This document shows positions 133 to 19,845 of a stretch of DNA of 25,889 bases, one piece after another. The notes under the pieces are model-generated. The model was not told the DNA's origin and made no database searches. It worked only from the letters and a program-made list of their open reading frames with translations. Each line of letters starts with the position of its first letter. The stretch's first letter is position 1. Made by a program: the position numbers and the translations under genes. Origin of the DNA: a virus; the IMG/VR virus record IMGVR_UViG_3300013094_004858, positions 1 through 25,889 of that record, one strand, 5' to 3'.

Positions 133-804
133 ATGATAACACTAAGACCCGCTGCTACACGCGGTAATCCTAGAGCCCCGTTTATCACGAGTTACAGAAC
201 ATTCAGCTTTCCCAGCTATTACGATGCTCGCTATATGAACTATAGCGATTTGCAAACCATCAACGATGATCGAGTTCAGTATGCTTGGCAAGTGCCCTGG
301 CACGAACATCGTAACATGGAAATCTTTGGCTATGTGGTTTCTGGAAGCAGTCATCATGTGGACAGTCTTGGAAACGATGTACTAGTGCCAGCTGGTGCTG
401 TTCAGCGTATGAGTTGTGGTCGTGGTATCGGCCACACCGAAGGCAATACTGCCAACACGCCCAATCGCTACTTGCAGTTATGGATCAGGCCCAATGAGTT
501 TGACACCGAGCCTGCTCATGCCTGGCACGAGTTTAGCAGAGAGGACAAGTTAAATCGTTTTTGCGACATCACAGCTCGATTGCCCATCCGTCAAGATGCC
601 AGGTTACTGGCCGGCATTTTTACTGAGGATTTTTCTTTTGACATCAACCGGCATAGACACTACTACCTGTACACAGTCACAGGTGTCGCAAACATAAATG
701 GCCATGCCGTGGCCGAAGGTGACGGCATGGCTTTTGAATCAGAACACCAGATCCTGATACAGGATCCTCGAGAATCTGAAATAATCTTGTTTGACCTGGT
801 CTAG
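133..804 (+). CDS. Pirin-family bicupin protein
   Basis: The 223-residue product matches the N-terminal cupin of pirin. The segment W-H-E-H-R-N-M-E-I-F-G-Y-V-V-S-G (residues 56-71) corresponds to the pirin H-x-H-R-G-x-E signature. It is followed by H-x-D-S-L-G-N (75-81) and M-S-C-G-R-G-I-G-H-T-E (93-103). The expected metal ligands are present: His57, His59, His101 and Glu103. Known pirins are cytoplasmic Fe-binding proteins; some have quercetinase activity and others act as redox-linked regulators. The role in a phage is unknown. The start lies 9 nt after the previous stop and has no convincing Shine-Dalgarno sequence. The TAG stop overlaps the stop of the convergent glycosyltransferase gene within CTAG. 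The family is a confident call; the function is not. Confidence 0.85.
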   Translation: MITLRPAATRGNPRAPFITSYRTFSFPSYYDARYMNYSDLQTINDDRVQYAWQVPWHEHRNMEIFGYVVSGSSHHVDSLGNDVLVPAGAVQRMSCGRGIGHTEGNTANTPNRYLQLWIRPNEFDTEPAHAWHEFSREDKLNRFCDITARLPIRQDARLLAGIFTEDFSFDINRHRHYYLYTVTGVANINGHAVAEGDGMAFESEHQILIQDPRESEIILFDLV

Positions 805-807
805 ACC
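798..807. other. 10-bp palindrome holding both convergent stop codons
   Basis: GGTCTAGACC is a perfect palindrome. Its central CTAG supplies the TAG stop of pirin (802-804) and, on the other strand, the TAG stop of the glycosyltransferase (801-803). The two genes therefore end on each other with no intergenic space. No T-tract follows on either strand, so it is not a standard terminator. Confidence 0.6.
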
Positions 808-1949
808 TTGAACCAACCCAGATACTGATGCACACGATCAACGACCGCAGTCCAGTTGCCCATGCTGGGTTGACGGAACAATCTGGCTGTGCTGTACCAC
901 GGACTGGAATCTCGATCCAGCAACCAGCGCCAGTCCAACGCAAACCAATTCAGCATGACCCAAACTGGTCTTCCTAGCGCACCACTCAGATGTGCAACCG
1001 CGGTGTCTACGGCCAAGACCACGTCGCAGTTCATGATCAAGGCTGCAGAATCAGCAAACGACTGTACCGATCCTGGATAGCAAGCCACACCTGATGCTGC
1101 GAGTGCATCGTTTTCTTCCTGGGTACAATCTACCTGCAGATTGATCCACTCATAACCGGGATTGCGCTGGATCAATCGCAACATGTCACCAAACTGCATG
1201 CCCTTGTGACGATTGATCCAGGTATCTCTACGACCCGACCAACAAAATCCCACTCGTAGACGGGTTTTTGGACCCAGGCGATCCTGCCAGGCACGCACAA
1301 GATCAGTGGGCGGAGTCAGATAATACTGTACATGTCCCAGGTTGTCCAAGGTAGTGCCCAGCACGCCCGGTATACTCATGATTGGTATCCAAAAATCAAA
1401 ACCTTCGGGAGTTTCTTCGTAGGGTATAAAACGTTCCACACCCGAGATGCACCTAAACAGCGGTATGAGACTGGCATTCACATGCACCCAGACTCTAGCA
1501 CCTCGACTGATCAAGTCGCCCACAAAGCGTATGAACTGCAAGTTGTCGCCGTGCCCTTGCTCGCCCACTACCAACACAATTTGATCCTTGATGTCCTGTC
1601 CGGTCCATCTGGGCTGTTGGTATTTGGGCAACAGTCCTGCCAGATGCTCGTACTGCCATCTATTTTCGTACTGTGGCCAGCCATTGACATAATTGCCGTC
1701 CAAGAGCCAGGCCACAGCCAAGTTGAATCGAGCTGTCACATTGCCTGGATCCAGTTCGATAGCACGTTGCAGGAACGGCACAGCAGCCCGAGGCTCGCCA
1801 CATTCTCGCAACACATTGCCGTAATTGTTGAATGCAGCTGCACAGTTGCGATCTAGTGCAATGGCCTGCACATAACAGGCCAGGGCCTGATCTGGATTGT
1901 TTTGCTCGCGGTGCGTGTTGCCCTGAGCGATAAGTTCGTTGATATTCAT
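801..1949 (-). CDS. TPR-repeat protein with GT9-type (heptosyltransferase-like) glycosyltransferase domain
   Basis: The 382-residue product has about two to three TPR units (residues 1-85; A-F-N-N-Y-G-N-V-L followed by A-I-E-L-D-P-G-N). The C-terminal domain resembles TPR-fused GT9 proteins: V-G-E-Q-G-H-G-D-N-L-Q-F (128-139), G-F-C-W-S-G-R (234-240), V-D-T-A-V-A-H-L-S-G-A-L-G-R-P-V-W (314-330) and D-R-D-S-S-P-W-Y (345-352). GT9 enzymes transfer heptose or similar sugars from nucleotide donors. TPR-fused members are often linked to protein or surface-glycan modification. I chose Met at 1949 because the TPR starts there; an in-frame extension to 2048 would run through the divergent promoter. 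No good Shine-Dalgarno sequence is visible. It is transcribed away from the fibre operon and may glycosylate virion fibres or host glycans. The acceptor is unknown. Confidence 0.75.
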   Translation of the reverse strand: MNINELIAQGNTHREQNNPDQALACYVQAIALDRNCAAAFNNYGNVLRECGEPRAAVPFLQRAIELDPGNVTARFNLAVAWLLDGNYVNGWPQYENRWQYEHLAGLLPKYQQPRWTGQDIKDQIVLVVGEQGHGDNLQFIRFVGDLISRGARVWVHVNASLIPLFRCISGVERFIPYEETPEGFDFWIPIMSIPGVLGTTLDNLGHVQYYLTPPTDLVRAWQDRLGPKTRLRVGFCWSGRRDTWINRHKGMQFGDMLRLIQRNPGYEWINLQVDCTQEENDALAASGVACYPGSVQSFADSAALIMNCDVVLAVDTAVAHLSGALGRPVWVMLNWFALDWRWLLDRDSSPWYSTARLFRQPSMGNWTAVVDRVHQYLGWFKV

Positions 1950-2096: not shown

Positions 2097-3044
2097 ATGG
2101 GCAGACCATTAAAAATCAAAAAATCAACCACCAAAGACATTGGTTTCAACAACTTTGGTAATGTTGAAGTACCTGTTGTGCCAACTGGCATGACCACAGC
2201 AGAATTCTTGGGTGTAGTGGGCGGAGCCAATGCCGGCATCGCTACCAGCTCGTATCCAGTGGTGCAAATCACAGCCAACGTGAACGGTCAGCAAGGCAAT
2301 GCCTACATTATTACACAAAAAGGTCAGACCAAATACCTGGTTTCGGGCGAAGACTCGGTCACGGCCGGTTCATTTACTCCGGGTTTTTCATATCAGATCC
2401 AGAGCCTGGGCAATACCAACTGGACCACAATTGGCGCCGGAATCAATCCGCAAGTGGGTCAGGTGTTTACGGCCAACGGCGTGGGTGCCGGTACAGGCAC
2501 AGCATCAGATGCTGGCCAATGTGTCTTGGTGGCCAACGCCACAATCACCAGCGGACAAATGAACATGATATTCAATGCCAACGGTGGATCGGCTTATGCC
2601 AGCCGCCTTACAAACAAATACATCTGGGATGCTTCAAACACTCGCTATGCCGTGAACTTCTTTGTGGCAGGTACCACGACTCCGCTGTCGTTGGCCAACG
2701 TCACAATCACCGGCAATGCCGGCACATTCACTTGCTCCAACACCAATATTGGTTTGGGCGAACTGATCACAGTCAGCGGCGCACTGAGCAACGTGGCCAC
2801 AGGTACAATTTCTGGTTACAGCGATCCAACCATTTATTATGTGACCAACACCAACGGCACAAACACATTCACCTTGAGCACCACAGAAGGTGGCGCTAAT
2901 ATTGTGACAGGTACTGGTAACACAACTGGCTTGACATTCAGCACATCAAGTTCAACCACGTTCAAATCGGGAGCAGATCCAGTGACCTGGACCAACGGCA
3001 CCGGCAACTTGACTCTGGCACAGGTACAGAATTACACATCATAA
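2097..3044 (+). CDS. Virion structural protein (fibre or decoration protein of a T4-like phage)
   Basis: The 315-residue product starts M-G-R-P-L-K-I-K-K-S and has a strong Shine-Dalgarno sequence (TAAGGAGA) just upstream. Residues 89-136 hold a motif found in many phage structural proteins: Y-x-I-x-S-L-G-x-T-N-W-T-x-I-G-A followed by V-G-x-V-F-T-A-N-G-V-G-x-G-T-G-T-A. The C-terminal half is Thr/Asn/Gly-rich beta-structure (I-Y-Y-V-T-N-T-N-G-T-N-T-F-T-L-S). No enzyme motif, signal peptide or membrane segment is visible. It is the first gene after the late promoter and directly precedes the giant fibre, which suggests a particle protein. The exact role (fibre, collar or head decoration) cannot be told. 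Confidence 0.6.
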   Translation: MGRPLKIKKSTTKDIGFNNFGNVEVPVVPTGMTTAEFLGVVGGANAGIATSSYPVVQITANVNGQQGNAYIITQKGQTKYLVSGEDSVTAGSFTPGFSYQIQSLGNTNWTTIGAGINPQVGQVFTANGVGAGTGTASDAGQCVLVANATITSGQMNMIFNANGGSAYASRLTNKYIWDASNTRYAVNFFVAGTTTPLSLANVTITGNAGTFTCSNTNIGLGELITVSGALSNVATGTISGYSDPTIYYVTNTNGTNTFTLSTTEGGANIVTGTGNTTGLTFSTSSSTTFKSGADPVTWTNGTGNLTLAQVQNYTS

Positions 3045-3108: not shown

Positions 3109-6100
3109 GTGGCCGTCACAAGAATAAAAAACAACCAAATCACTGATGCAATATCAGGAAATAGCATTGTTGGTATCAATGCCAACACCAAGATACAGGA
3201 CCACAGTATAACGTCGGTCAAATTGTCCAACAACCTAACCTATGGTAGCGATCTTACCATCACAGGTAATCTGAGCGTGACTGGTACTACTACAGCAGTC
3301 GACACTACATACACCAATATCCAAGATCCGTTGATTGTATTGGCAGACGGACAGACCACAGGAAGTCCAACTGTGGACATTGGCTATATCGGTCTACGTG
3401 GAAACCAAGCCAACATTGCTCTTATCTGGAATGAGGCCAACAGCACTTTTGCTGCTACCTATACCAACAGCGGTGTAAACGACGACACGATTGTTGCTAT
3501 CAACAGCTATGCCGACTTCAAGGCCAACAATGTAAACACCGTGACTGATGTTAGTGCTGGTGGTAACGTGTTTGGTGGCAATGTCACAGCCACAACTGAT
3601 GTTAGTGCTGGTGGCAATGTTACAGCTGCTACCAATGTAAGTGCTGGCAGCAACGTACTGGCCAATACCGATGTAAGTGCTGGTGGTAACGTAACAGGTG
3701 GCAATGTAAATGTGACCACTAATGTAAGTGCCGGCGGCAATATATACGGTGCAAATTTTGCAACAACAGGTTCGGGTGGCAATATCACCGGAGCCAATGT
3801 TATTTCTGCAACCACAATAACAACCACTGGCGATGTCAGTGCAGGTGGCAATATCATTGCTGGTGTCAATGTCAGCGTAGGCGGAAACGTCTCAGTTGCT
3901 GGCAACATCACGGCCACTGGTAATGTTGGCACAAATCAGTACCTGTTTGGTGACGGTTATTATATCAGCAACATCAATGCTGGCAACGTGTCTTCAACAA
4001 AAATATTCAATGGTGGCAGTTATGCCAACATAGCCGCCACTGACGGCAACTTGGTAGTGGCTGTTGGCAGTAGTTCAAACATAGTGGCCACATTCTACGA
4101 CACTGGTATCAACACCAACGGCAATCTCAGTGCCAGTGGTAATATACTAGCCGGAACCGATGTAAGTGCTGGTGGTAACGTAACGGGTGGCAATGTAACT
4201 GCTACTACCAATGTATCAGCAGGTGGCAATGTTTTAGCCAATACAGATGTGAGTGCTGGTGGCAATGTAACAGGTGGCAATGTAACTGCTACTACTAATG
4301 TAAGTGCTGGCAGCAATGTTCTTGCTAACACTGATGTGTCAGCAGGTGGTAACGTAACAGGTGGCAATGTAACTGCTACTACTAATGTAAGTGCTGGCAG
4401 CAATGTTTTAGCCAATACAGATGTAAGTGCTGGTGGTAACGTGTTTGGTGGCAATGTAACTGCCACAACCAACGTTTCAGCTGGCAGCAATGTGCTTGCT
4501 AATACCGATGTGTCAGCAGGCGGAAACGTAACTGGCGGCAATGTAACTGCTACAACCAACGTTTCAGCTGGCAGCAATGTAATTGCAGGTACAGACGTTA
4601 GTGCAGGCGGTAACGTATTGGCTTACAACAGTGTTTCTGCTAACGGAAATATAGCAGGTGATAATATAATTGCTGGCACTACCATTTCATCAGGTGGCAA
4701 CATACAGGCTTATGGCACTGTAACAGCTGGTGGTAACATACAGTCCAATCAAAATGTACAGGCTTACCAAGACGTTAGTGCTGGTGGTAATATAATTGCA
4801 AACTTCAACGTAACTGCTACAGGCAACGTAACCGGTGGTAACGTAAATGCCACAACTGATGTGTCAGCAGGAGCCAACGTGGTTGGTGGCAACATAGTCA
4901 CTCAAGGTACTATCACAGCCACAGGTACACTACAAGCCGGTAACATAATCACTGGCGGTTATGTGACTGCTACAGGTAACGTACAAGCCGGTAATATCAA
5001 CACAGCAGGTGATGTAAGTGCCACAGCCAATGTAAATTCAGGCAATGTAAACAGCGTCACGATCAGTGCTAGCGGTGCAGTGTACGGAGCCAACATCAAC
5101 AGCAACTATCTCTACAGTGCCAACAGCAGTTTGATTATCAGTGCAGTGGGTACCAATAGCGGTATCAGCATATTCACCAACGGTACAGGCAACATTGGTG
5201 TAGGTAACGCCTATATCAACAACTTGGCCAATCCGCAACAGGCACAAGATGCGGCCACCAAGTACTATGTTGACAGTGCAGTACAAGGTCTAGCAGTCAA
5301 AACTTCTGTGAGTGTGAGCGAAGTTTCTACATTGGCCAATGTGGCCAATGTGACCAATGTGGCATACTTTAATGGAACAGCCGGAGTTGGTGCCACATTG
5401 ACTGTGACCAGTACAGCTCAAATCAGCCTGGACGGTGTTGATCTCAGCACATTGCCGGCCAATGCCAGAGTATTGATCCAGAATGAAACTGGATCTGGTG
5501 CCAACGATACCAATGCTGCCTGGAACGGTATCTATTACATATCAACCAACAGTCCAACCAGCACTGTGTTTACACGCAGTTTGGACATGGACACACCAAG
5601 CCAATTCTACGGTGCATTTACCTTTGTTGAAGATGGTACTGTGTATAAAGCATCAGGTTGGGTATGTACCAACACTGCTGATGCCACTCCGATCACGATT
5701 GGTACTACCGCCGTTACCTGGAGTCAGTTCTCAGGTGCGGGTTCTTACACACAAGGCAACGGTATCGCAATCACAGGTACAGTAATCAGTACTAGAATCA
5801 ACACTGGCAATTTGCAATATGATGGTAGCGGAAACCTACAGGTATCCAGCTATGCCAATTTGACTTATCCAAATATTGGGTCAGCAACTGGTACCACATT
5901 GAGCTTGACCGGTAATTTAGTTGCCAGCGCAATTGGTTCAACCGACAGCATGAGTGCTGCTGGTAACGTTTATGCAGCCAATATCAGCACCAGCGGCAAC
6001 GTGTTTGCTGTGGCCAACATAACTGGTGGCAACTTGTTGACTGGCAACATTGTGAGTGCTGGTGGTAATGTTATTGGTAGCAACTTGTTGACCACTGGAT

Positions 6101-8121
6101 ATGTCAGCGCAACTGGCAACCTGTACAGTGGTAATCTCAGCTTGTCGGGCAATGTGTCCAGCGACATAAAAATGTTGGGCAACATTACCGCAGGCGGTTA
6201 CATAACTGCGGTTGGTAACATCAGCGGCGGCAACGTAAACACTGGCATTGTTTCAGCCAGCGGTAACGTGTACTCGGCCAATGTATTGGCCACAGGCGAT
6301 ATTATTCCTACTGCGGCCAACACATACAATTTGGGTAACGCAACCAACAACTGGCAGAGTTTGTATCTAAGCGGAAGTACCATTTACTTGGGCAACATCC
6401 AGCTCAAGCAAACCACAACAAATACTTTCAGCGTAACAACCAGCGATGGTACTACACCGGCTAATTTTGCTACCAACAACATCAGTGCTGCAGGAAATGT
6501 CAGTGCTGGTGGCAATGTATTGGCCAATGTCAATGTAAGTGCTGCTGCCAATGTGTATGGTAACAACATTTCAGCCACAACCAACGTGTTGGGCGGCAAT
6601 GTTTATGCGACCAACAACATCACAGCTGGTGGTAATGTTCTTGCTACCACAGACATAAGTGCCGGTGGTAATGTTCTTGCTACCACAGACATAAGTGCCG
6701 GTGGCAATCTAATTGGTGCAAATGTCAATGTCAACTATGTCAATGCCAACAACAATATCAGCGCAGGTGGCAACATTACAGGTGCCAATTTTACAACAAC
6801 TGGTTCACAAGGCAACATCACAGGTGCCAATGTAATCAGCGGTGTAACTTTGACAGCCAGTGGCAATATCTACGCAAACGGCAGTATCACTGCTGTTGGT
6901 AACATTGGATCTGGTCAATACTTGTTTGGTGATGGTTATTATATCAGCAATATCAATGCCGGCAACGTGGCCACAACCAAGATCTTTAATGGCAACAGCT
7001 ACGCTAACGTGGTTGCAACCAACGGTAATGTTACAATTGGTGTAAACAGTAATTTGGTTGCTACATTTTACAATACCGGAGTCAGTGTAGCTGGTAACAT
7101 ACAAACCAATGCGTTTGTGCTTGGTGCCAACTTGAGTCTGAGTGGTAATGTTGACGGTGCACTCAATGTGGGTGGCAATGTGACTGGTGCTAACTTGATA
7201 GCAGTTACTGATGTCACAGCAGGTGGTAATGTAAATGCCAGTGCAGTTGGTGTACAAACCACTGTCAGTGCAGGTGGTAACATTTATGGTGCCAACCTAG
7301 CAATTACTGGATATGGAACAGTGTCAACGGGTGGTAATATAATCGCTGATATCAACATCAGTGCTGGCGCCAATGTTATCGCAGGCAATGTGTTCACAGG
7401 TGGATTGATTAGTTCGGTTGGTAATATCACAGCTGGCACTTTGCTTTATGTAGATACCACAGACGGCACAGTGTTGATTGGTAACAACACACCAGTATCC
7501 AGTTCGATCTTGACCTTGAACAGCACTACCAGCTTTGTGGTACCAACTGGTAACACTGTACAACGTCCAGCAACAGGTTATACAGGTATGGTGCGTTTCA
7601 ATACCAGCCAGAACAATCTGGAAGTGTACGACAATGCACAATGGAGTCCGGTGGGTTCAACCACGTTTACTGTAATCTCAGATCAACAGTTTGCTGGTGA
7701 TGGCGCAACAGTGAACTTTACACTGGGCAGCACACAAACTACCAACAGTTGCTTGGTCAGTATCAACGGTGTGGTACAAATTCCAACCCTGGCTTATGCT
7801 GTGTCTGGAACCTACCCAACCTGTGTGCTCACATTCACAGAAGCTCCAGAAAGCGGTGACGTGATTGACGTAAGAGAAATCACAACCACGGTGACCTTGT
7901 ATGAATTGGCCAGTACCAGTGGCAATGCCAGTGTAAGCGTAAGCAACACCAGCGCCGAAGTGGACATCAAGGGTAATTTGGTAACTACTCTGAGTGCAAG
8001 TGCTCCGGCTCTGACTACCAACGCAACCATGAGCTTCCAGTTGGTCAACAACACCACTCTAGCATTTGTGGTGCGTGGCACAGACGGCGTGACAAGAACT
8101 GCTACTGTGACGCTGGCTTAA
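3109..8121 (+). CDS. Giant repeat tail fibre protein
   Basis: The 1670-residue product starts at a GTG behind ACAGGAGA. Regions in order: a head (1-145); GN-rich beta-repeats such as V-S-A-G-G-N-V-T-G-G-N-V-T-A-T-T-N (about 146-705); a D-A-A-T-K-Y-Y-V-D fibre motif near 713-722; a globular domain (about 733-900); more repeats (about 900-1440); T-G-M-V-R-F-N (near 1493); and a C-terminal domain with F-A-G-D-G-A-T-V-N-F-T-L and S-G-D-V-I-D-V-R-E. The 17-residue unit, often alternating with a 12-residue unit, has few charged residues, which suggests a long beta-solenoid or trimeric stalk. It is probably a host-recognition fibre. A strong terminator ends the gene. A 63-residue module occurs twice (3937-4125 and 6916-7098). 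It is more than twice as long as the first gene's whole product and is the longest protein in the window. Confidence 0.8.
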   Translation: MAVTRIKNNQITDAISGNSIVGINANTKIQDHSITSVKLSNNLTYGSDLTITGNLSVTGTTTAVDTTYTNIQDPLIVLADGQTTGSPTVDIGYIGLRGNQANIALIWNEANSTFAATYTNSGVNDDTIVAINSYADFKANNVNTVTDVSAGGNVFGGNVTATTDVSAGGNVTAATNVSAGSNVLANTDVSAGGNVTGGNVNVTTNVSAGGNIYGANFATTGSGGNITGANVISATTITTTGDVSAGGNIIAGVNVSVGGNVSVAGNITATGNVGTNQYLFGDGYYISNINAGNVSSTKIFNGGSYANIAATDGNLVVAVGSSSNIVATFYDTGINTNGNLSASGNILAGTDVSAGGNVTGGNVTATTNVSAGGNVLANTDVSAGGNVTGGNVTATTNVSAGSNVLANTDVSAGGNVTGGNVTATTNVSAGSNVLANTDVSAGGNVFGGNVTATTNVSAGSNVLANTDVSAGGNVTGGNVTATTNVSAGSNVIAGTDVSAGGNVLAYNSVSANGNIAGDNIIAGTTISSGGNIQAYGTVTAGGNIQSNQNVQAYQDVSAGGNIIANFNVTATGNVTGGNVNATTDVSAGANVVGGNIVTQGTITATGTLQAGNIITGGYVTATGNVQAGNINTAGDVSATANVNSGNVNSVTISASGAVYGANINSNYLYSANSSLIISAVGTNSGISIFTNGTGNIGVGNAYINNLANPQQAQDAATKYYVDSAVQGLAVKTSVSVSEVSTLANVANVTNVAYFNGTAGVGATLTVTSTAQISLDGVDLSTLPANARVLIQNETGSGANDTNAAWNGIYYISTNSPTSTVFTRSLDMDTPSQFYGAFTFVEDGTVYKASGWVCTNTADATPITIGTTAVTWSQFSGAGSYTQGNGIAITGTVISTRINTGNLQYDGSGNLQVSSYANLTYPNIGSATGTTLSLTGNLVASAIGSTDSMSAAGNVYAANISTSGNVFAVANITGGNLLTGNIVSAGGNVIGSNLLTTGYVSATGNLYSGNLSLSGNVSSDIKMLGNITAGGYITAVGNISGGNVNTGIVSASGNVYSANVLATGDIIPTAANTYNLGNATNNWQSLYLSGSTIYLGNIQLKQTTTNTFSVTTSDGTTPANFATNNISAAGNVSAGGNVLANVNVSAAANVYGNNISATTNVLGGNVYATNNITAGGNVLATTDISAGGNVLATTDISAGGNLIGANVNVNYVNANNNISAGGNITGANFTTTGSQGNITGANVISGVTLTASGNIYANGSITAVGNIGSGQYLFGDGYYISNINAGNVATTKIFNGNSYANVVATNGNVTIGVNSNLVATFYNTGVSVAGNIQTNAFVLGANLSLSGNVDGALNVGGNVTGANLIAVTDVTAGGNVNASAVGVQTTVSAGGNIYGANLAITGYGTVSTGGNIIADINISAGANVIAGNVFTGGLISSVGNITAGTLLYVDTTDGTVLIGNNTPVSSSILTLNSTTSFVVPTGNTVQRPATGYTGMVRFNTSQNNLEVYDNAQWSPVGSTTFTVISDQQFAGDGATVNFTLGSTQTTNSCLVSINGVVQIPTLAYAVSGTYPTCVLTFTEAPESGDVIDVREITTTVTLYELASTSGNASVSVSNTSAEVDIKGNLVTTLSASAPALTTNATMSFQLVNNTTLAFVVRGTDGVTRTATVTLA
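4162..4596 (+). repeat. Five tandem 87-bp (29-codon) repeats in the giant fibre
   Basis: Five in-frame copies of a 29-residue unit run back to back: a 17-residue part (V-S-A-G-G-N-V-T-G-G-N-V-T-A-T-T-N) plus a 12-residue part (V-S-A-G-S-N-V-L-A-N-T-D). A sixth, divergent unit begins at 4597. Protein identity is near complete while many third codon positions differ (for example GTA AGT versus GTT TCA). Some stretches are exact: 51 nt at 4270-4320 recur at 4357-4407. Confidence 0.9.
6631..6702 (+). repeat. Perfect 36-bp tandem duplication in the giant fibre
   Basis: The 36 nt at 6631-6666 recur without any change at 6667-6702. This adds exactly 12 codons (G-N-V-L-A-T-T-D-I-S-A-G). Complete identity, when neighbouring repeats differ at many third positions, points to a recent slippage or recombination event. 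Confidence 0.9.
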
Positions 8122-8138
8122 TAGCTGCAACGCTCTAG

Positions 8139-8170
8139 AAAAAATAGGACTCCTGGAGTTCTATTTTTTT
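8139..8170 (+). terminator. Rho-independent terminator after the giant fibre gene
   Basis: AAAAAATAGGACTC (8139-8152), loop CTG, GAGTTCTATTTTTT (8156-8169) gives a 14-bp stem with one G-U pair, and the descending arm is followed by one more T. The A-run and T-run make it look bidirectional. It starts 17 nt after the fibre stop codon and separates this gene from the next fibre-locus genes. Confidence 0.8.
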
Positions 8171-8171
8171 G

Positions 8172-8179
8172 ACTAAATA
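8172..8179 (+). promoter_or_regulatory. Possible degenerate late promoter
   Basis: ACTAAATA has one mismatch to NATAAATA and lies directly after the terminator, about 24 nt before the start of the next gene. Position supports it, because the terminator would otherwise cut the following five genes off from a promoter. The match itself is weak. Confidence 0.35.
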
Positions 8180-12563: not shown

Positions 12564-12578
12564 TAAAGGAACCCAATT

Positions 12579-12803: not shown

Positions 12804-12810
12804 AGGTACT

Positions 12811-13188: not shown

Positions 13189-13191
13189 ATA
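13184..13191 (+). promoter_or_regulatory. Late promoter before the collagen-like fibre gene
   Basis: CATAAATA matches the NATAAATA late-promoter form and is followed by C. It overlaps the stop codon of the 125-aa gene (TAA at 13186-13188) and lies 20 nt before the ATG at 13212, with AGGA at 13201-13204 as the Shine-Dalgarno sequence. The same box-to-Shine-Dalgarno layout is seen before the gp13-like gene. Confidence 0.55.
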
Positions 13192-13211
13192 CAAGATACT
13201 AGGACAATACC

Positions 13212-16200
13212 ATGGCAAATAGATTTCCGTTAATAGCTAATGCAACAGCTGATCAAATACAAGAACTGGCCAGTGGGGATTTTTTAGATCTCAGCCAAAG
13301 CGGCATTGCCAACAGTGGCAATATCACCGTGGCCAGTGGCAGTTTCTATTTTGGTAACGGCAGCCAGCTCACTGGAGTCATAGCTGCAGATTCTGGTTTT
13401 CCAATCACAGCTGGCACTAGCAATTTAAACGCACCATCCAACGGCAACATCACGGCCACAATAGGCGGTACTGGTGTAGTGGTCTGGGCCACTACCGGCG
13501 AATACGTTACTGGTCTTATATCAGCATCGGGCAATGTGACCGCTAGTCAATTTAATGGATCTGGTGCAGGACTGACCAGTATACCAGGTGCCAATGTGAC
13601 AGGCACAGTGGCCAATGCCACTTACGCAACATCAGCAGGGTCAGCAGTGGGCACTGCAGCCACGGTAACTGTCAATGCACAACCAAACATCACTTCAGTT
13701 GGTACCTTGACATCAGTAACATCGTCGGGTCTTGTATCAACCACAGGCAACATAGTTGGTAGCAATATTATAACCAGCGGAAGTGTGTTGCCCACAGCCA
13801 ATGCCACACAAGACCTAGGATCACCCACATTACAATGGGCTCACCTTTATGTCAGTGGTAACAGTATCTATCTTGGCGGCGGTGCTCTTACTGCCAATGC
13901 TGGTCAGCTGTCTTTTTCTGGAAATGCTGTAGTCACAGCCAATGCCACAGGCGTTTCAAGCACAGTGGGAAATGTGGCTATCAGCGGCAATGTGCAAGGT
14001 GGCAACATACTCACAGCTGGCTTAGTAAGTGCCGGTGCCAATATCACAGGCGGCAACATACTTACAGCTGGATCAATCTCAGCCACTGGCAATATCACTG
14101 GCAATTATATTATTGGTAACGGCAGCCAATTAACCGGTGTAACTGCAAGCAGTGTGAATGCCAACAATTTGACTGGCAATACTCTTGCTAGTGGTGTAAT
14201 CAACTCCAGCTTGACAAATTTTGGTCTAGTCAGCTCAATCAGTGCTACTGGTACTATCAGTACTGGCGGCAACGTACAAAGTGGCAACGTCCTAACTGGT
14301 GGTTTGATCAGTTCAACTGGCAACATAACCGGCGGCAATGTTGGTGCTACTACTATAACTGCAACCACAGTAACAGCAAGTGGCAATGTGTATGCTGGAA
14401 ATCTTGTCAATTCGGGCAGTTCTAGTATAACCGGAAATATCACAGCTGGCAACATACTTACAGCAGGCTTGATAAGCGCCACTGGTACAGTAACCGCTAG
14501 TCAATTTAATGGATCTGGTGCAGGCCTGACCAGTATACCGGGTGCCAATGTGACAGGTACAGTGGCCAACGCCACTTACGCAACATCGGCAGGGTCAGCA
14601 GTGGGCACTGCAGCCACCGTGACAGCCAATGCACAACCAAATATTACATCGGTTGGCACACTTACATCAGTAACATCATCGGGCTTGATTTCAACCACAG
14701 GTAATGTGGTTGGTAATTATATCTTGGGCAATGGTGCACTTTTAACTGGTGTGATCACCAGCGTGGCCAACATCAACAACGGTACCAGCAATGTGACCGT
14801 GACTGCGTCGGGCGGCAATATCACTGTGGGCGTAAGTGGTGTGGGCAATGTGGCGGTATTTGCTCCAACTGGAGAATATGTAACTGGTATAGTCAGCGCC
14901 TCGGGCAACATTGTTGGAGGCAATATATTAACAACTGGATTGATTAGCTCAACTGGTAATGCTATACACGGCAACATACTTACAGCTGGGTTAATTAGCT
15001 CAACTGGTAATATTATTGGTGGTAACATCGCTACGGCCGGGTTGATTAGCTCAACTGGTACAGTAACCGCTAGTCAATTTAATGGATCTGGAGCTGGCTT
15101 GACCAGTATACCAGGTGCCAATGTGACAGGCACAGTGGCCAATGCCACTTACGCGGTCAGTGCTGGATCAGCAGTGGGCACTGCAGCCACCGTGACAGCC
15201 AATGCACAACCAAACATAACATCAGTTGGTACCTTGACATCAGTAACATCGTCGGGCTTGATTTCAACCACAGGGAATGTGGTTGGGGCCAATATCAACA
15301 CAACTGGGTTGGCCAGCGTTGGAGGCAATTTGTATGTGGGCGGTAGCGCCAACATTATTGGCAACCTGAACGTACAAGGCAATGTCACATTTATCAATTC
15401 AAATGTAATCACAGTCAACGATCTCTACATCGAATTGGCCAACAACGTCACTACCTATGCCAATGCCAATGCAGCTGGTTTAGCAGTTGGACCAACAGGC
15501 AGTACATTATTTAATTGGCAGTATCTCAATTCGGCCAATGCTTGGAGCACCAACATTGGCATTACTGCCACCGGTAACATAACCGGTGGCAACATACTTA
15601 CAACTGGGTTGATCAGTGCTGCTGGCAATCTTGCAGGTGGCAACCTGTTGTTGACAGGCACTATTAGTACATCAGGAACCAGTCAAGCAGCCAGCTACAG
15701 TGCCAGTGGCAACATAACCGGTGGCAATATAAACACAGGTGGAGTAGTTAGTGCCACAGGTAACGTTTATGTGGCTAATCTAATCAATAGCGGATCTGAA
15801 ACCGTCACCGGTAACATAACCGGTGGCAATATAAACACAGGTGGACGTGTTACAGCAGTTGGTAATGTTATAGCAGCCGGGTTCCAGTATGCCAATGGGA
15901 CGCCTGTACAAGGATCGGGCGCACAAGGTACTACGGGTACTACTGGATCGCAAGGAACAACAGGAAGCCAGGGCACTGCTGGAACAAATGGCAGTCAAGG
16001 AACAACAGGCACACAAGGCACAGTCGGAACACAAGGTACTGTGGGTGCTCAAGGTACTGTGGGTGCTCAAGGTACTGTGGGTGCTCAAGGTGCTACAGGC
16101 TCAGCAGGAAGCCAGGGCACTGTAGGAGCTCAAGGTACTGCCGGAACAAATGGCAGTCAAGGTACAGCTGGAACAAATGGCAGTCAAGGAACAACAGGAA

Positions 16201-16877
16201 GCCAAGGTACTGCTGGATCAACAGGTAGCCAAGGTACAGCTGGAACAAATGGTAGTCAAGGAACCACAGGTACCACAGGTAGCCAAGGTACTGCTGGATC
16301 AACAGGTAGCCAAGGTGCCACAGGCCCAAGCACAGCAATCAATGCCACCGCAGTCACAACTGGTACATTTTATCCAGTATTTGTGGCTAGTGCTGGGTCA
16401 AATCAAACTCCCAGCGTGCGGACCACTGCCACAGCATTCAGCATCAATGCTGCTACCAATGTGCTCACAGTCACAGCAACCACAGCGCAATATGCCGACT
16501 TGGCAGAATGCTACGCAGCCGATACCGACTACGAACCAGGCACAGTTATGGTATTTGGTGGTGCCAATGAAATCACTATCAGCAATTCTGCTAGCGATCC
16601 TGCCATAGCTGGGGTGGTATCTACCGAACCAGCACACCTCATGAACGGATTCCAGAGCGGAGAAAATGTGTTGCCAATTGCCCTGGTTGGTCGCGTGCCG
16701 TGTCGGGTGGTTGGACCCATAGTCAAAGGTGATCGACTTGTAACTGGAACTGTTCCAGGAACAGCAGTCAAATTGGATCCGGCGCAGTACCAACCCGGTT
16801 GTCTAATCGGTAAAGCCCTACAAGATTACGACAGTGCCACGCCAGGTGTGATTGAAATATCCGTAGGTCGCGCCTGA
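13212..16877 (+). CDS. Large tail fibre with collagen-like stalk and C-terminal processing/assembly-type domain
   Basis: The 1221-residue product has a head with F-G-N-G-S-Q-L-T-G-V (near 46-55), GN-type beta-repeats, and three copies of a 75-residue module. It then has the 68-residue N-D-L-Y-I-E-L module (15360-15563) and 46 uninterrupted Gly-X-Y triplets (residues 903-1040). The C-terminal domain (from about 1095) has A-D-L-A-E-C-Y, A-G-V-V-S-T-E-P-A-H-L-M-N, L-V-G-R-V-P-C-R-V-V-G-P-I-V-K-G-D-R-L-V and I-G-K-A-L. This resembles the peptidase-G2/intramolecular-chaperone type tips of phage fibres, some of which self-cleave after trimer folding. Cleavage here is not shown. It is the last gene of the fibre locus and probably forms a trimeric stalk with a distal tip. 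Confidence 0.75.
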   Translation: MANRFPLIANATADQIQELASGDFLDLSQSGIANSGNITVASGSFYFGNGSQLTGVIAADSGFPITAGTSNLNAPSNGNITATIGGTGVVVWATTGEYVTGLISASGNVTASQFNGSGAGLTSIPGANVTGTVANATYATSAGSAVGTAATVTVNAQPNITSVGTLTSVTSSGLVSTTGNIVGSNIITSGSVLPTANATQDLGSPTLQWAHLYVSGNSIYLGGGALTANAGQLSFSGNAVVTANATGVSSTVGNVAISGNVQGGNILTAGLVSAGANITGGNILTAGSISATGNITGNYIIGNGSQLTGVTASSVNANNLTGNTLASGVINSSLTNFGLVSSISATGTISTGGNVQSGNVLTGGLISSTGNITGGNVGATTITATTVTASGNVYAGNLVNSGSSSITGNITAGNILTAGLISATGTVTASQFNGSGAGLTSIPGANVTGTVANATYATSAGSAVGTAATVTANAQPNITSVGTLTSVTSSGLISTTGNVVGNYILGNGALLTGVITSVANINNGTSNVTVTASGGNITVGVSGVGNVAVFAPTGEYVTGIVSASGNIVGGNILTTGLISSTGNAIHGNILTAGLISSTGNIIGGNIATAGLISSTGTVTASQFNGSGAGLTSIPGANVTGTVANATYAVSAGSAVGTAATVTANAQPNITSVGTLTSVTSSGLISTTGNVVGANINTTGLASVGGNLYVGGSANIIGNLNVQGNVTFINSNVITVNDLYIELANNVTTYANANAAGLAVGPTGSTLFNWQYLNSANAWSTNIGITATGNITGGNILTTGLISAAGNLAGGNLLLTGTISTSGTSQAASYSASGNITGGNINTGGVVSATGNVYVANLINSGSETVTGNITGGNINTGGRVTAVGNVIAAGFQYANGTPVQGSGAQGTTGTTGSQGTTGSQGTAGTNGSQGTTGTQGTVGTQGTVGAQGTVGAQGTVGAQGATGSAGSQGTVGAQGTAGTNGSQGTAGTNGSQGTTGSQGTAGSTGSQGTAGTNGSQGTTGTTGSQGTAGSTGSQGATGPSTAINATAVTTGTFYPVFVASAGSNQTPSVRTTATAFSINAATNVLTVTATTAQYADLAECYAADTDYEPGTVMVFGGANEITISNSASDPAIAGVVSTEPAHLMNGFQSGENVLPIALVGRVPCRVVGPIVKGDRLVTGTVPGTAVKLDPAQYQPGCLIGKALQDYDSATPGVIEISVGRA
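13536..13760 (+). repeat. 75-codon module, copy 1 of 3
   Basis: In-frame module beginning V-T-A-S-Q-F-N-G-S-G-A-G-L-T-S-I and including Q-P-N-I-T-S-V-G-T-L-T-S. Copies follow at 14490-14714 and 15063-15287. The motif resembles the linker between stalk segments of many phage fibres. Confidence 0.9.
14103..14285 (+). repeat. GNGSQLTGV module, copy 3 (in the 1221-aa fibre)
   Basis: This 61-codon module begins N-Y-I-I-G-N-G-S-Q-L-T-G-V and is homologous to the two copies in the 922-aa fibre, showing exchange or common descent between the fibre genes. Confidence 0.8.
14490..14714 (+). repeat. 75-codon module, copy 2 of 3
   Basis: Nearly identical in protein to copies 1 and 3. It differs at a few positions (A-N-A-Q-P for V-N-A-Q-P, G-L-I-S-T for G-L-V-S-T). 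It is followed by a G-N-G-A-L-L-T-G-V segment that repeats the layout of the N-terminal head. Confidence 0.9.
15063..15287 (+). repeat. 75-codon module, copy 3 of 3
   Basis: Third copy, with one local change (T-Y-A-V-S-A-G for T-Y-A-T-S-A-G). The opening GTAACCGCTAGTCAATTTAA is shared exactly with copy 2. Confidence 0.9.
15360..15563 (+). repeat. 68-codon module shared with the 922-aa fibre (10689-10892)
   Basis: The segment from G-N-L-N-V-Q-G-N-V-T-F to S-T-N-I-G-I is nearly identical in protein to residues 299-366 of the 922-aa fibre (V/I, N/S and S/T changes only). Third-position differences are scattered, so the copies are old or were exchanged and then diverged. Confidence 0.85.
15918..16331 (+). 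repeat. Collagen-like Gly-X-Y tract, 46 triplets
   Basis: Forty-six uninterrupted triplets run from G-A-Q to G-P-S. X is mostly Thr, Ser or Ala, and Y is mostly Gln, Thr, Ala, Val or Asn. Only the last triplet contains proline. Within it an 18-bp unit (CAAGGTACTGTGGGTGCT) is repeated exactly three times at 16032-16085. Collagen-like stalks form trimers in phage fibres. With so little proline, stability would have to come from Thr/Gln packing or from sugar on Thr. Confidence 0.9.
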
Positions 16878-16887: not shown

Positions 16888-16927
16888 ATGTATACTGGCA
16901 TTTGTCGTCATAAATGCTAGTATACAT
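16888..16927 (+). promoter_or_regulatory. 16-bp inverted repeat enclosing the start region of the propeller gene
   Basis: The left arm ATGTATACTGGCATTT (16888-16903) pairs with the right arm AAATGCTAGTATACAT (16912-16927) over all 16 positions with one G-U, leaving an 8-nt loop. It starts 10 nt after the 1221-aa fibre stop codon. The right arm contains the ATG at 16914 and the first two bases of the in-frame ATG at 16926. There is no T-tract. It could block translation of the next gene, form the 3' end of the fibre mRNA, or be a protein-binding site. Confidence 0.65.
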
Positions 16928-17930
16928 GAACTTATCCCAACAAATTGCCCAGTCGGGTCTGGTAAAATCCAGTCTAGATCGAGGTGGTAGCATACATCCC
17001 TTGATCATACCCAGTGAATTGACCAATGGAACCGGGCTCATGAATCCCAGTATCTATCTAGACGGAGACCAGTTGTTGGTCAACATACGTCATGTCAACT
17101 ATACCCTTTACCATTCCGAGCAAAAACGATTCCAACACAGATATGGACCTTTGCAATATCTGCATCCTGAAAATGATCGCAAACTACGGACCTGGAACTA
17201 TTTTGGCGTACTAAATCCAGATCTTGCTCTCAAACAGATCACGGCCGTGGATACTACCCGTCTGGATGTGGAACCCATATGGGAGTTTGTAGGCCTAGAA
17301 GATGCACGCCTGTTTCGTTGGGACAACAAGATGTTCCTGAGCGGAGTCAGACGAGACACTACCACAAACGGCCAAGGCAGGATGGAACTGAGCGAGCTAT
17401 CGGTCAAGACCAATATTGTGCGAGAAATCAAACGCACTCGTATTCCGGCACCGGGAGCCAACGCCAGCTATTGCGAAAAGAACTGGATGCCGATCTTGGA
17501 TCAGCCCTATCACTATGTCAAGTGGTCCAATCCTACCGAAGTAGTTAGGTTTGACCCGGCCACCGGAATCACAGAAACAGTGCATCTGGATGAAACCAAA
17601 TTTATCAGTGGTCAGCCCGATTTCCGCGGCAGCAGCCAGGTCATACCCTATGGCGATCTTTATTTGGCACTCATACACGAAGTGGATCTGTTCAAGAGCG
17701 AGCATGGTGAAAAAGATGCCAACTACAAACACAGATTCTTGGTCTGGGACCGATCGTGGAACATAGTCAAATTCACCGACGCATTTACATTCATGAATGC
17801 CGATATCGAGTTTTGTTGCGGTGCTGCTTTTGTGGGAGACGATCTTTTGTTGAGTTTTGGATTCCAAGACAACGCAGCATTCATCTTGCGTATGCCTAAA
17901 ACTGTGTTGCGTGAATATCTAGGAGTGTGA
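16914..17930 (+). CDS. Beta-propeller glycoside hydrolase/phosphorylase-like protein
   Basis: The 338-residue product has features of five-bladed propeller carbohydrate enzymes (GH130/GH43-like superfamily): V-G-L-E-D-A-R-L-F (126-134), F-L-S-G-V-R-R-D (141-148), Y-C-E-K-N-W-M-P-I (186-194), and D-F-R-G-S-S-Q-V-I near the middle. In GH130 enzymes comparable Glu/Asp residues bind or cleave mannosides. Whether this protein is a hydrolase, a phosphorylase or part of a transferase cannot be decided. Start: ATG at 16914 or 16926. Neither has a Shine-Dalgarno sequence and both overlap the inverted repeat. The stop lies 2 nt before the next start, so the pair is translationally linked. No signal peptide is visible. 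Confidence 0.55.
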   Translation: MLVYMNLSQQIAQSGLVKSSLDRGGSIHPLIIPSELTNGTGLMNPSIYLDGDQLLVNIRHVNYTLYHSEQKRFQHRYGPLQYLHPENDRKLRTWNYFGVLNPDLALKQITAVDTTRLDVEPIWEFVGLEDARLFRWDNKMFLSGVRRDTTTNGQGRMELSELSVKTNIVREIKRTRIPAPGANASYCEKNWMPILDQPYHYVKWSNPTEVVRFDPATGITETVHLDETKFISGQPDFRGSSQVIPYGDLYLALIHEVDLFKSEHGEKDANYKHRFLVWDRSWNIVKFTDAFTFMNADIEFCCGAAFVGDDLLLSFGFQDNAAFILRMPKTVLREYLGV

Positions 17931-17932
17931 TC

Positions 17933-19165
17933 ATGTTTGCACAGCGACTACAACAATATATCAACAACCACAATGACTCAATGGCCAATTTTGCACTGGC
18001 ACAGGAATACGAACAGATGGGCCAGACTGGTGCCGCTATCAGTTTTTATCTGCGTGCAGCCGAACGTAGCACAACTGATCTCGAGCAGTACGAATCCTTG
18101 ATCAGGATGGCCTTGTGCTTTGAACGACAAAAAACTCGTGATGACACCGAGAAAGTGATCTTGCAAAAGGCTATCACGCTCATGATCGATCGTCCTGAAG
18201 CCTATTTCCTGCTCAGTCGCCTGCATGAATTCAATCGAGAATGGCACGAAAGCTATACCATGGCCTGTGTGGGTCTGCATGCGGCTCGGTTTGATCTTGA
18301 CCCGTTAAAGACTGACACTCAGTATCCAGGACAGTACGGTTTGATTTTTCAAAAGGGTGTGGCCTCATGGTGGGTAGGGCTGTGTGAAGAAAGTCGACAG
18401 ATCATGCACGATCTCAAGTTTGGACATCGGATGAATGATCTGTTTCGATCGGCTGTGGATAGAAATTTGGGCAACATAGGCTGGCCCAACACACGAACAG
18501 ATTACAAACCCGAATTGGCATCACGTGCTCGTGCGCCATTTGCAGGACTGGATCAACTGCAACACAATCATGCACAAAGCTACCAGGATCTATTTGTGTT
18601 GTCAGCCACCGGCGGCAAGCGCAATGGTCGATATTTGGAGATTGGCTGTGCTGAGCCATTTGACAGCAACAACACAGCCCTGTTAGAAACCAAATTTGGC
18701 TGGACCGGGGTCAGCATGGACATCAACCAACAAGTGGTCGAACAGTTCATGCGCGAACGTGACAACCTGGTATTTTGCCTGGATGCCATGCGTGTGGACT
18801 ATGCCAAGTTCTTGCTCACTGTGGGATTCAGTGGAGATTTTGATTACCTACAGGTCGACTGTGATCCGCCCAGCCACTCGTTCGCTATTCTACAACGTAT
18901 TCCGTTTGATACTGTGAGATTTGCCACCATAACTTTTGAGCACGATTACTACGTGGACCCCAGCATAAGAGATCTTTCCAGGAAATTTTTACTCGGCAAA
19001 GGTTATGTGCTAGCAGCCGGTGATATAGCATACAACCACACGCACAGCTACGAGGATTGGTGGATCCATCCAGATTTGGTTGACCCAATCATACAGCAAC
19101 AGTTGATAGATCGCAGCGATCAAATCAAACACGCCAGAGATTACCTGTTCCCCACAGCTAAATAA
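17933..19165 (+). CDS. TPR protein with FkbM-type methyltransferase domain
   Basis: The 410-residue product has TPR-like helices in the first half (A-L-A-Q-E-Y-E-Q-M-G near 21-30; P-E-A-Y-F-L-L-S-R-L near 88-97). A Rossmann methyltransferase follows: Q-S-Y-Q-D-L-F-V-L (215-223), G-R-Y-L-E-I-G-C-A-E-P (232-242), F-G-W-T-G-V-S-M-D-I-N (255-265), D-A-M (284-286), and F-D-Y-L-Q-V-D-C-D-P (303-312). FkbM-family enzymes O-methylate small molecules and sugars and occur in glycan clusters. Start: ATG at 17933 with AGGAG 7 nt upstream, preferred over the GTG at 17927. The combination of TPR and sugar-type enzyme mirrors the glycosyltransferase at 801-1949. The substrate is unknown. Confidence 0.7.
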   Translation: MFAQRLQQYINNHNDSMANFALAQEYEQMGQTGAAISFYLRAAERSTTDLEQYESLIRMALCFERQKTRDDTEKVILQKAITLMIDRPEAYFLLSRLHEFNREWHESYTMACVGLHAARFDLDPLKTDTQYPGQYGLIFQKGVASWWVGLCEESRQIMHDLKFGHRMNDLFRSAVDRNLGNIGWPNTRTDYKPELASRARAPFAGLDQLQHNHAQSYQDLFVLSATGGKRNGRYLEIGCAEPFDSNNTALLETKFGWTGVSMDINQQVVEQFMRERDNLVFCLDAMRVDYAKFLLTVGFSGDFDYLQVDCDPPSHSFAILQRIPFDTVRFATITFEHDYYVDPSIRDLSRKFLLGKGYVLAAGDIAYNHTHSYEDWWIHPDLVDPIIQQQLIDRSDQIKHARDYLFPTAK

Positions 19166-19182
19166 TAGCAAAGGGGAATCGC

Positions 19183-19845
19183 ATGGATGCAAAATACCGT
19201 ACAGATTATGCTGGCGAGTTCGTTATCACACATACTCGTTGGGCCGGTCGCAAACGTGAAGAGACCAGAGAATGGATAGCCAATCCAATTGAAAATCATC
19301 ACATCAGCGGTCGTGCAGTCTGCATTGGGCACACTTCAGAGCGTGAATATTTTGATTACACTAGATTACAACGCCATCGCGGCGGACTGCTGGGATCAAA
19401 AAAATTACAAACCTACGGAGTTGGTGCAATAGCTCACGAGATGCCATTGGATTTTGCCGTCGACACCACCACAGACGGACTAGCTAAACTGTTAGAATCC
19501 GGCTACGCAGAAAAAAATATTGTGTATACCAATGCCAGGAACTGTATACAGCATCCAGAAAAATTTTATCTGATACCGTACAAACCTCAACTGTTGGACA
19601 TTGCTATCATTATGTATCTGGCAGCATTTGATGGACACAGTGAAATATTCATGCTGGGTTATCATAAAGAAACCGACACCGGCTCCAACAGATGGATCGA
19701 ACAGATCACATCCGTGATACAGGCCTATTCAGGAACGCAATTCACATTTGCAGGCGAACCCACCAACATGCCCGATGCTTGGCTGGATCAGCCCAACGCA
19801 CGGGCGTTAAATTATAGAGATTTTATAGGCTACTGCGACATTTGA
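19183..19845 (+). CDS. Protein of unknown function, possibly DUF115/sialyltransferase-like fold
   Basis: The 220-residue product is preceded by AAAGGGGA. I do not recognise a firm family. Residues 139-161 (D-I-A-I-I-M-Y-L-A-A-F-D-G-H-S-E-I-F-M-L-G-Y, then H) resemble the helix followed by E-I-x-L-x-G-x-D/H seen in DUF115 and CST-type sialyltransferase folds. Residues 112-122 (N-I-V-Y-T-N-A-R-N-C-I) could be an earlier strand of such a fold. This is a weak analogy. It follows the FkbM gene by 17 nt, and its 3' end overlaps the convergent Nudix gene by 16 nt. Context suggests a place in the same glycan-related group. Confidence 0.55.
   Translation: MDAKYRTDYAGEFVITHTRWAGRKREETREWIANPIENHHISGRAVCIGHTSEREYFDYTRLQRHRGGLLGSKKLQTYGVGAIAHEMPLDFAVDTTTDGLAKLLESGYAEKNIVYTNARNCIQHPEKFYLIPYKPQLLDIAIIMYLAAFDGHSEIFMLGYHKETDTGSNRWIEQITSVIQAYSGTQFTFAGEPTNMPDAWLDQPNARALNYRDFIGYCDI

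Follow-up and report, generated by a model that had tools for sequence, protein, structure and literature searches.

In the window, by which we mean the whole stretch of viral DNA analyzed (25,889 nucleotides), the gene of a collagen-like fibre is followed immediately by two genes whose products we call PROP, a GH130/GT108-like five-bladed propeller enzyme (positions 16914..17930, plus strand), and FKBM, a TPR protein with an FkbM-like methyltransferase part (17927..19165, plus strand), the start of the latter overlapping the end of the former. In some large aquatic phages, this pair and a proline-poor collagen-like tail-fibre shaft appear and disappear together, which suggests that such phages may attach methylated sugars to fibres of their own. 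We put at roughly 0.5 the probability that PROP and FKBM constitute a modification cassette for the fibre encoded directly upstream, decorating its proline-free shaft.

The fibre genes of the window together span positions 3109–16877. They begin with a long Thr/Asn/Gly-rich repeat fibre (3109..8121, plus strand), judged from its composition and a match to PF03961 (FapA, E = 1.9e-12) to contain beta-solenoid-like repeats, and continue with five further genes on the plus strand between 8203 and 13188 (8203–8904; 8908–9777, LamG-like; 9795–12563; 12579–12803; and 12811–13188). The collagen-like fibre itself (13212..16877, plus strand; 1221 amino acids) matched PF01391 with 69.1 bits and so passed the cut-off of 27.2 bits used for a collagen call. 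Its collagen run (15918..16331, plus strand) comprises 46 Gly-X-Y triplets, in which Thr accounts for 38% and Pro for 1% of the X and Y residues, and is almost devoid of Lys and Pro. The run is followed by a C-terminal domain of 181 amino acids (16332..16874, plus strand), for which the Pfam search returned no match and which also occurs on non-collagen fibres of loci lacking the pair. Downstream of FKBM lie a gene for a 220-amino-acid protein of unassigned family, which forms a separate module (19183..19845, plus strand), a Nudix hydrolase gene marking the right border of the slot (19830..20324, minus strand; PF00293, E = 8.7e-16), and the anchor gene of our comparison, encoding a T4 gp15-type tail sheath stabilizer (20252..21715, minus strand; PF16724, E = 7.3e-26).

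The main evidence comes from 61 loci anchored on gp15, which were selected by their structural neighbour genes, irrespective of the enzymes; loci with <5 kb beyond gp15 or without an adjacent Nudix gene (236 loci, 166 distinct gp15) are omitted from this set, and the distinctness of loci was judged on a stretch of PROP, GT9, or gp15. The pair was present in seven of the 61 loci, and a collagen-like fibre was encoded directly upstream in all seven, whereas collagen was found within the visible locus in only two of the 54 pair-less loci. Because "pair-less" refers to the visible locus, whole contigs were then searched for 46 of these 54 and for two loci outside the set (L193 and L368); PROP was found in none of the 48 contigs and collagen in five, in one of which (G146) it lay far from the locus. 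On the gp15 tree, to which ten additional pair loci were added, each with at least 1.5 kb visible upstream, PROP changed six times and collagen seven times, and the approximately six changes of the pair always occurred jointly with collagen. The five supported independent pairs all pointed in the same direction, giving a sign-test value of 0.0625, which is the minimum of that test.

The distinguishing feature of the pair loci is the proline-free collagen shaft. Proline amounted to ≤2% in 17 of 17 collagens beside the pair at the gp15 locus, a count that leaves out one of 18 (L102, with eight triplets, below the minimum), includes short runs of 11 (L033) and 19 (L111) triplets, and contains the window and L431, which are one phage at 99%. 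In the pair-less collagens, it amounted to 7–36% in four of four, although two of these (L485 and L368) are alike, so that the four may be three. At one pair-less locus with collagen (L407, on the same contig as L200), two GT4 genes and an FkbM methyltransferase gene occupy the slot; at L485, L368, and L193, collagen is present and no such enzymes are visible.

Phage glycosyltransferases near fibres are usually taken as modifiers of the host surface, and this is the most serious alternative, which we consider unlikely but far from negligible: the pair would alter a host polysaccharide, such as the receptor of the collagen-bearing fibre, and so exclude other phages, with enzymes and fibre traveling together since both concern one receptor. 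Glycosyltransferases in the tail-fibre region of T4-like aquatic phages have been published in this sense, in the parts of the reports consulted (PMC7029224; PMC7824862), and the same phage contig also encodes an NDP-sugar epimerase, a GT4, and a sugar-isomerase-type cupin. However, the 181-amino-acid fibre end sits on non-collagen ORFs in 43 of the 54 pair-less loci; together with the proline values, this indicates that the pair tracks the collagen shaft, not the end that both kinds of fibre have in common. This argument is not decisive, because the common end may serve as a chaperone while another part binds the receptor. No flippase or membrane anchor was seen in the pair itself, and no obvious membrane segment was found in PROP or FKBM.

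Beyond the gp15 locus, 25 of the 51 loci that could be assessed had a collagen gene ≤4 kb upstream of PROP. Among the matches listed, the distance between PROP and collagen was ≤10 kb in 18 of 25 collagen-bearing contigs (combined p = 7e-4, with kinship ignored) and >20 kb in seven; three of 28 PROP contigs had no collagen match, and in Synechococcus phage S-SCSM2R there was no collagen among the six genes mapped on either side of PROP. A contig relative of the window carries two further collagen fibres, both far from its sole PROP copy. In more distant phages, PROP is often far from collagen, and the linkage is looser than at the gp15 locus. Composition varies as well, the pair-bearing collagen of L066 containing little Thr (5%) and that of L048 some Pro. 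When contigs were picked by capsid protein as controls, PROP was found in 0 of 25 and collagen in two of 25, compared with collagen in 25 of 28 PROP contigs (Fisher's test, 1e-9); for contigs ≥60 kb, collagen occurred in 21 of 24 PROP contigs and two of 12 controls (p = 6e-5). As many of these controls were short, the gp15-anchored set was made the main evidence.

An earlier note on this DNA had proposed that glycan-enzyme genes on both sides of the fibres could form one system. Its observation is partly confirmed, and its interpretation is partly supported, in a narrower form. The association that the note proposed to check, between the enzymes and collagen-like fibres, proved strong for PROP and FKBM, across the 61 loci and the tree changes, but GT9, the 220-amino-acid gene, and the pair differ in their distributions and do not bracket the fibres as one system. 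The TPR-GT9 gene described directly left of the fibres (801..1949, minus strand; 47 distinct loci compared) probably starts at about 1949, where the first ATG common to its relatives lies, and not at 2048. Its N-terminal TPR is clear (TPR_16, 52.4 bits against a cut-off of 32.7, E = 7.2e-14), whereas its GT9-like C-terminus scored 20.1 bits with PF01075, below the Pfam cut-off of 22. Between it and the fibres, in divergent orientation, lies a structural-type gene of 315 amino acids (2097..3044, plus strand), for which no family match was found in the profile search. TPR-GT9 travels with this gene and occurs in phages lacking both the pair and collagen. In 31 of the 54 pair-less loci, the 220-amino-acid gene comes after ordinary fibres, and the suggestion that its product is DUF115-like found no support: there was no Pfam match at E ≤ 1 and no PHROG match, the structure model was poor (pLDDT 53), and Foldseek gave no match at E ≤ 0.001. 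Ankyrin-type matches of its profile to the PDB were judged to be due to chance. The description of the fibres as Thr/Asn-rich holds for the three long ones (Thr, 14–16%; Asn, 9.5–13.6%), compared with three other structural proteins (Thr, 5.8–10.3%; Asn, 5.8–7.2%), but not for a fourth, LamG-type protein, with only 4.8% Asn. Richness in Thr, Ser, and Asn does not discriminate a substrate, as such fibres are common in pair-less loci.

PROP and FKBM are closely bound to each other. In the loci fetched by PROP, the FKBM core started ≤200 bases downstream in 57 of 64 assessable cases and was fused in one more; of the 37 fetched by FKBM, 35 had PROP either directly before it or fused to it. The TPR-FkbM fusion reported earlier for FKBM is confirmed as a gene whose TPR part precedes a C-terminus resembling methyltransferases, although in the window protein the TPR is weak (TPR_8, E = 0.001) and the FkbM profile (PF05050/TIGR01444) gave no match. 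Among 27 relatives, TPR_17 was found in 13 and PF05050 in four (best E = 5e-4), and long relatives carry separate, additional FkbM domains above the cut-off. When the FKBM and GT9 profiles were compared with the PDB, TPRs accounted for all or most of the matches listed. The genes neighbouring the cassette encode GT2, GT17, nucleotidyltransferase/cupin, and methyltransferase proteins, and the presence of other glycosyltransferases and methyltransferases in the slot points to sugar building.

In some relatives, FkbM, radical SAM, and SPASM domains are fused to PROP or FKBM, with DUF6445 domains added. These fusions could instead point to tailoring of the RiPP (proteusin) type, in which FkbM-type methyltransferases, radical SAM/SPASM, and oxygenase-like domains would modify the Asn residues or backbone of the fibre and PROP would be an accessory. 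Such a system has a precedent in proteusins, whose Asn residues or backbone are methylated by FkbM-like enzymes, according to the part of the source available (PMC11285071), and the window fibres are Asn-rich. We nevertheless regard it as improbable, because the pair tracks collagen, Asn-rich repeat fibres are common without the pair, GT2, GT4, and GT17 genes also occupy the slot, and both radical SAM and DUF6445 are absent beside the pair in the window.

The propeller glycosidase-like protein noted to the right of the fibres was borne out: the PROP model (pLDDT 92.2) confidently shows the fold of GH130-type beta-mannosyl enzymes, with matches to GH130 at Z = 21.7–24.9, GT108 at Z = 18.0–18.6, and GH43 at Z ≤ 18.2. 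On the strength of this model, PROP is assigned as a five-bladed propeller of the GH130/GT108 superfamily. The Glu and Asp of its GxED motif (E129–D130) were invariant in 62 of 62 members, and the motif aligned with the GxEDPR of GH130 (hhalign, Prob 86.7, E = 4.4e-6, 103 columns), a slightly circular score in that the set of 25 of 30 proteins was chosen partly by this motif. The alignment makes it likely that GxED carries the putative catalytic Asp, and an Asn and an Arg of the sugar site are likewise predicted. The Pfam GH130 profile gave no match to the window protein and matched 20 of the 62 members weakly (best E = 1.8e-4). A single antibody match of the PROP profile to PDB sequences was judged to be due to chance. 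The GH130 phosphorylase class is marked by three basic phosphate-binding residues; the PROP members have many invariant Arg, Lys, and His residues in their sequence alignment. GT108 is characterized by mannosyl transfer that depends on GDP-mannose. The family comprises at least 598 viral stretches and is rare in cells (nine loci from seven genomes, all MAG or metagenome-bin records). GH130 enzymes are mostly catabolic, a point against the cassette reading. It is very improbable, however, that PROP serves catabolism, as a mannoside phosphorylase or hydrolase encoded by an auxiliary metabolic gene that travels with the fibre by chance: the characterized GH130 enzymes are mainly such phosphorylases and hydrolases and include its closest folds, but PROP is repeatedly joined with FKBM and collagen and has sugar-building neighbours.

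For the decoration of the phage's own shaft, we infer the following course. Modification would be set in the host cytoplasm, ahead of the winding of the three fibre chains, and the TPR part of FKBM may help to keep hold of the chain while it is still unfolded. Acting as a synthetic enzyme, PROP would place a beta-linked hexose, most likely mannose, on a sugar borne by triplet Thr, and FKBM would then cap the sugar or residue by methylation. The decoration might take over the role that proline and hydroxyproline play in ordinary collagen. Only tentatively, and at somewhat less than even odds, we propose the wider version, in which methyl-capped beta-mannosyl-type glycans on Thr replace proline and hydroxyproline and stabilize the shafts, made by a largely viral branch of GH130/GT108, with shaft, glycosylator, and methylator repeatedly acquired as a block by T4-like phages.

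The closest known systems, as described in the parts of the cited sources consulted, each share some of these features. PROP resembles the GH130 phosphorylases/hydrolases and GT108 (the mannosyltransferase-phosphorylases of Leishmania) in its five-bladed fold and GxED motif, but has almost no sequence signal, is mainly viral, and occurs beside collagen fibres. FlmG of Caulobacter carries out TPR-guided cytoplasmic glycosylation of flagellin, its TPR binding the acceptor protein (PMC7591256); the window GT9 and FKBM are likewise TPR plus enzyme, a likeness of domain plan alone, whereas the substrate of FlmG is flagellin and the window GT9 match is sub-threshold. Mimivirus L230 is a collagen hydroxylase/glucosyltransferase for a virus-encoded proline-poor collagen (PMC9614988), a similar association of virus-borne enzymes with such a collagen; its acceptor is hydroxylysine, whereas the window enzymes belong to other families, and Lys and Pro are nearly absent from the collagen of the window. 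The BclA-type spore collagen, with glycosylated Thr-rich Gly-X-Thr repeats (PMC8968730), resembles the Thr-rich run of the window, but lies on the bacterial spore surface, and bacterial collagens commonly have Pro at X. The host recognition cluster of T4-like pelagimyophages and cyanomyophages similarly combines glycosyltransferases and fibres in one variable region by the neck genes (PMC7029224), but is interpreted there as O-chain modification, and the parts consulted name neither the pair nor a tie to collagen. In the literature covered, mostly without subscription papers and without bioRxiv, no paper was found that names the pair of PROP and FKBM, and nothing was found for GT108 together with GH130.

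If phages do decorate their own shafts in this way, it would explain how a long phage collagen can be built without proline or hydroxyproline and would give a function to a largely viral branch of GH130/GT108. Unannotated viral genes, present in the hundreds of stretches counted above, would then become a testable protein-modification system.

The window is a piece of a T4-like phage genome, as judged from the matches at its right side to T4 gp15 (PF16724; 20252–21715, − strand), a head–tail adaptor (phrog_211), and a virion protein (phrog_11591). A 199,683-base IMG/VR contig (G019) is approximately 99% identical to window positions 2180–25394 and carries 2.5 kb of additional fibre sequence at window position 8751 (L311:6570–9073), indicating that the fibre region differs even among very close phages. 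Three stretches of this contig (L320:14803–16325, L316:6564–10108, and L313:8703–9792) also contain an NDP-sugar epimerase, a DegT-type fragment, a radical SAM/SPASM gene, a GT4, and a methyltransferase adjoining a mannose-isomerase-type cupin. At the left edge of the window lies a pirin/quercetinase-type bicupin (133–804, +; PF02678, E = 1.8e-22), which, among the loci fetched by that stage, was matched only in the window's own sequence. The glycan-enzyme genes named in the earlier note are present as gene calls. In the TPR + GT9-like gene (GT9; 801–1949, −), the TPRs are clear, but the GT9 assignment is weak, with a match below threshold. In the TPR + FkbM-like gene (FKBM; 17927–19165, +), the TPRs are weak and the C-terminus is FkbM-like, and the 220-aa gene (19183–19845, +), previously described as possibly DUF115-like, had no Pfam or PHROG match.

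The earlier note had suggested that co-occurrence of these enzymes with collagen-like fibres be examined, and this was confirmed at the window-type locus for FKBM and the preceding propeller gene (PROP; 16914–17930, +). To keep the selection independent of the enzymes, loci were fetched via structural genes (gp15, the virion protein next to it, and the 23366 gene). The 236 loci obtained (at most 80 per fetch, favouring close relatives, on contigs that are fragments) represented 166 distinct gp15 sequences, of which 61 had at least 5 kb beyond gp15 and an adjoining Nudix gene. The PROP–FKBM pair was present in seven of these, with a collagen fibre (13212–16877, +, in the window) directly upstream in all seven, whereas collagen was found in the visible locus of 2 of the 54 pair-less loci (Fisher 8e-8 for pair versus collagen, kinship ignored). 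When 48 whole contigs were searched (46 of the 54 pair-less loci plus L193 and L368), PROP was found in none and collagen in five, in one case far from the locus. On the gp15 tree, a quick search supported by SH-aLRT only, PROP changes twice among the 61 loci; when 10 further loci with the pair were added, PROP changes six times and collagen seven. All 10 contain collagen, L102 with just eight triplets. The five supported independent pairs on this tree all run in the same direction (sign test 0.0625, the lowest value attainable).

The association concerns the fibre shaft rather than the fibre end. The 181-aa C-terminal domain of the window's collagen fibre, which has no Pfam match, occurs in all seven pair loci and in 45 of the 54 pair-less loci, in 43 of the latter solely on collagen-free ORFs. 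The pair goes with a proline-free collagen shaft, whereas the same 181-aa end is found on another shaft where the pair is absent. Proline accounted for ≤2% of the pair-side collagen triplets in 17 of 17 loci (Thr: median 38%, range 5–52%), and for 7–36% in the four pair-less collagens. The lowest of these four values belongs to L407, where two GT4 genes and an FkbM methyltransferase follow the collagen fibre in the slot otherwise occupied by the pair (same contig, L200:1715–4370, −); no GT4/FkbM-type enzymes were visible in this slot in L485, L368, or L193. Beyond the window-type locus, the contrast is softer (5% Thr in L066; 10% Pro + Lys in L048).

Collagen matches were found in 25 of the 28 long PROP contigs; among the matches listed, the distance from PROP was ≤10 kb in 18 and >20 kb in seven. 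Taking the distinct PROP loci together, 25 of the 51 assessable ones have a collagen ORF no more than 4 kb upstream, and 44 of 93 have one somewhere in the locus as fetched. A collagen-like gene adjoins PROP in cyanophage DSL-LC02; in S-SCSM2R, collagen was flagged in none of the six mapped genes on either side of PROP. G019 has a single PROP and two additional collagen fibres far away. Given these looser distances and counts, tight linkage between the pair and collagen is a feature of some lineages, including that of the window.

PROP and FKBM are themselves closely coupled. Of the 64 assessable PROP-fetched loci, 57 have the FKBM core beginning within 200 bases downstream of PROP and one has it fused to PROP; in the other six, the core lies 0.7–5.5 kb downstream (five loci) or upstream of a second PROP copy (one). 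Conversely, PROP was directly upstream of or fused to FKBM in 35 of 37 FKBM-fetched loci. A GT17 gene sits between the two in L058; a weak GT17 match and other GT-type genes are present in L055. An FkbM + radical SAM + SPASM stretch is fused to PROP or FKBM in L013 (radical SAM and SPASM matches below the cut-off), L206, and L027, as are a GT17 and a methyltransferase in L061. The 4 kb downstream of PROP, surveyed in 83 loci, contained a GT2 gene (24), a DUF6445 domain (39), the 220-aa family (9), or a nucleotidyltransferase/cupin (5), with two types in 16 and none of those listed in 22. The DUF6445 domains show an HxD...H...R pattern, which we read as that of a putative oxygenase. A second, diverged PROP copy or PROP–FKBM-like fusion was observed beside the first in L045:12326–13906 and L071:10992–12608, and a heptose-adenylyltransferase-type nucleotidyltransferase fused to a mannose-6-phosphate-isomerase-type cupin adjoins PROP–FKBM in L143:7153–7914.

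The PROP sequence itself had no matches in Pfam, PHROG, or NCBIfam. Its model, predicted from a 62-member alignment (pLDDT 92.2), matched the GH130 phosphorylase 7fir best among PDB entries in Foldseek (E = 1.2e-9), followed by 9erg, a GH130-type mannoside synthase. The VIA Z values were 21.7–24.9 for GH130, 18.0–18.6 for GT108, and ≤18.2 for GH43, the latter two therefore being tied, and weak Pfam GH130 matches occurred in 20 of the 62 family members (best 1.8e-4). The predicted fold is of the GH130 type, a placement that does not distinguish among phosphorylase, hydrolase, and transferase chemistry. The sugar-site residues described for BT3780 (N74, R89, E141, D142, and D363; PMC4599007) likely correspond, in that order, to N44, R59, E129, D130, and D319 of PROP; N44, E129, and D130 were matched by profile alignment, R59 by spacing, and D319 by a weaker first alignment. 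Relatives are annotated as beta-mannosyltransferase in two phage records (one at 22.8% identity) and as an MGP protein in another; scans by peptide patterns identified at least 598 in viruses and nine loci in cells.

The proposal of a single system bracketing the fibres did not hold for the outer genes. Among the 25 PROP contigs, GT9 was strong in four and weak in two, and three of 25 control contigs picked by capsid protein gave a strong match; the absence of GT9 from G019 is explained solely by that contig beginning at window position 2180. The 220-aa gene follows the fibres in 31 of the 54 pair-less loci. In 47 distinct GT9 loci, the divergent neighbour was the 2097-type gene (2097–3044, +, in the window) in 34 and an unlabelled gene of comparable length in seven; the locus stops at that point in four, and two are otherwise placed. 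A 398-aa gene frequent further left agrees, in length only, with the gp23 capsid protein of this lineage. GT9 and the 220-aa gene may serve other virion proteins. A natural minimal locus was seen in L179, where GT9, the 2097-type gene, a DUF115-like gene, Nudix, and gp15 occur in series and both fibre genes and the pair are absent.

The simplest account of these sequence data and predictions would be that the enzymes in the slot between fibre and Nudix (19830–20324) decorate the proline-free collagen shaft. Glycosylated Thr is able to stabilise Gly-X-Thr collagen in worm cuticle. For flagellin, work on FlmG (PMC7591256) has established cytoplasmic O-glycosylation guided by TPRs, and glycosylation is described as believed to aid BclA hydration (PMC8968730). 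The main rival, that the enzymes modify the host surface, is the customary reading of such genes in the sources consulted (PMC7029224, PMC7824862); the linkage to the shaft and the proline results speak against it, though not decisively. If the shaft is decorated, its Thr residues would most likely carry a sugar that PROP extends and FKBM caps.
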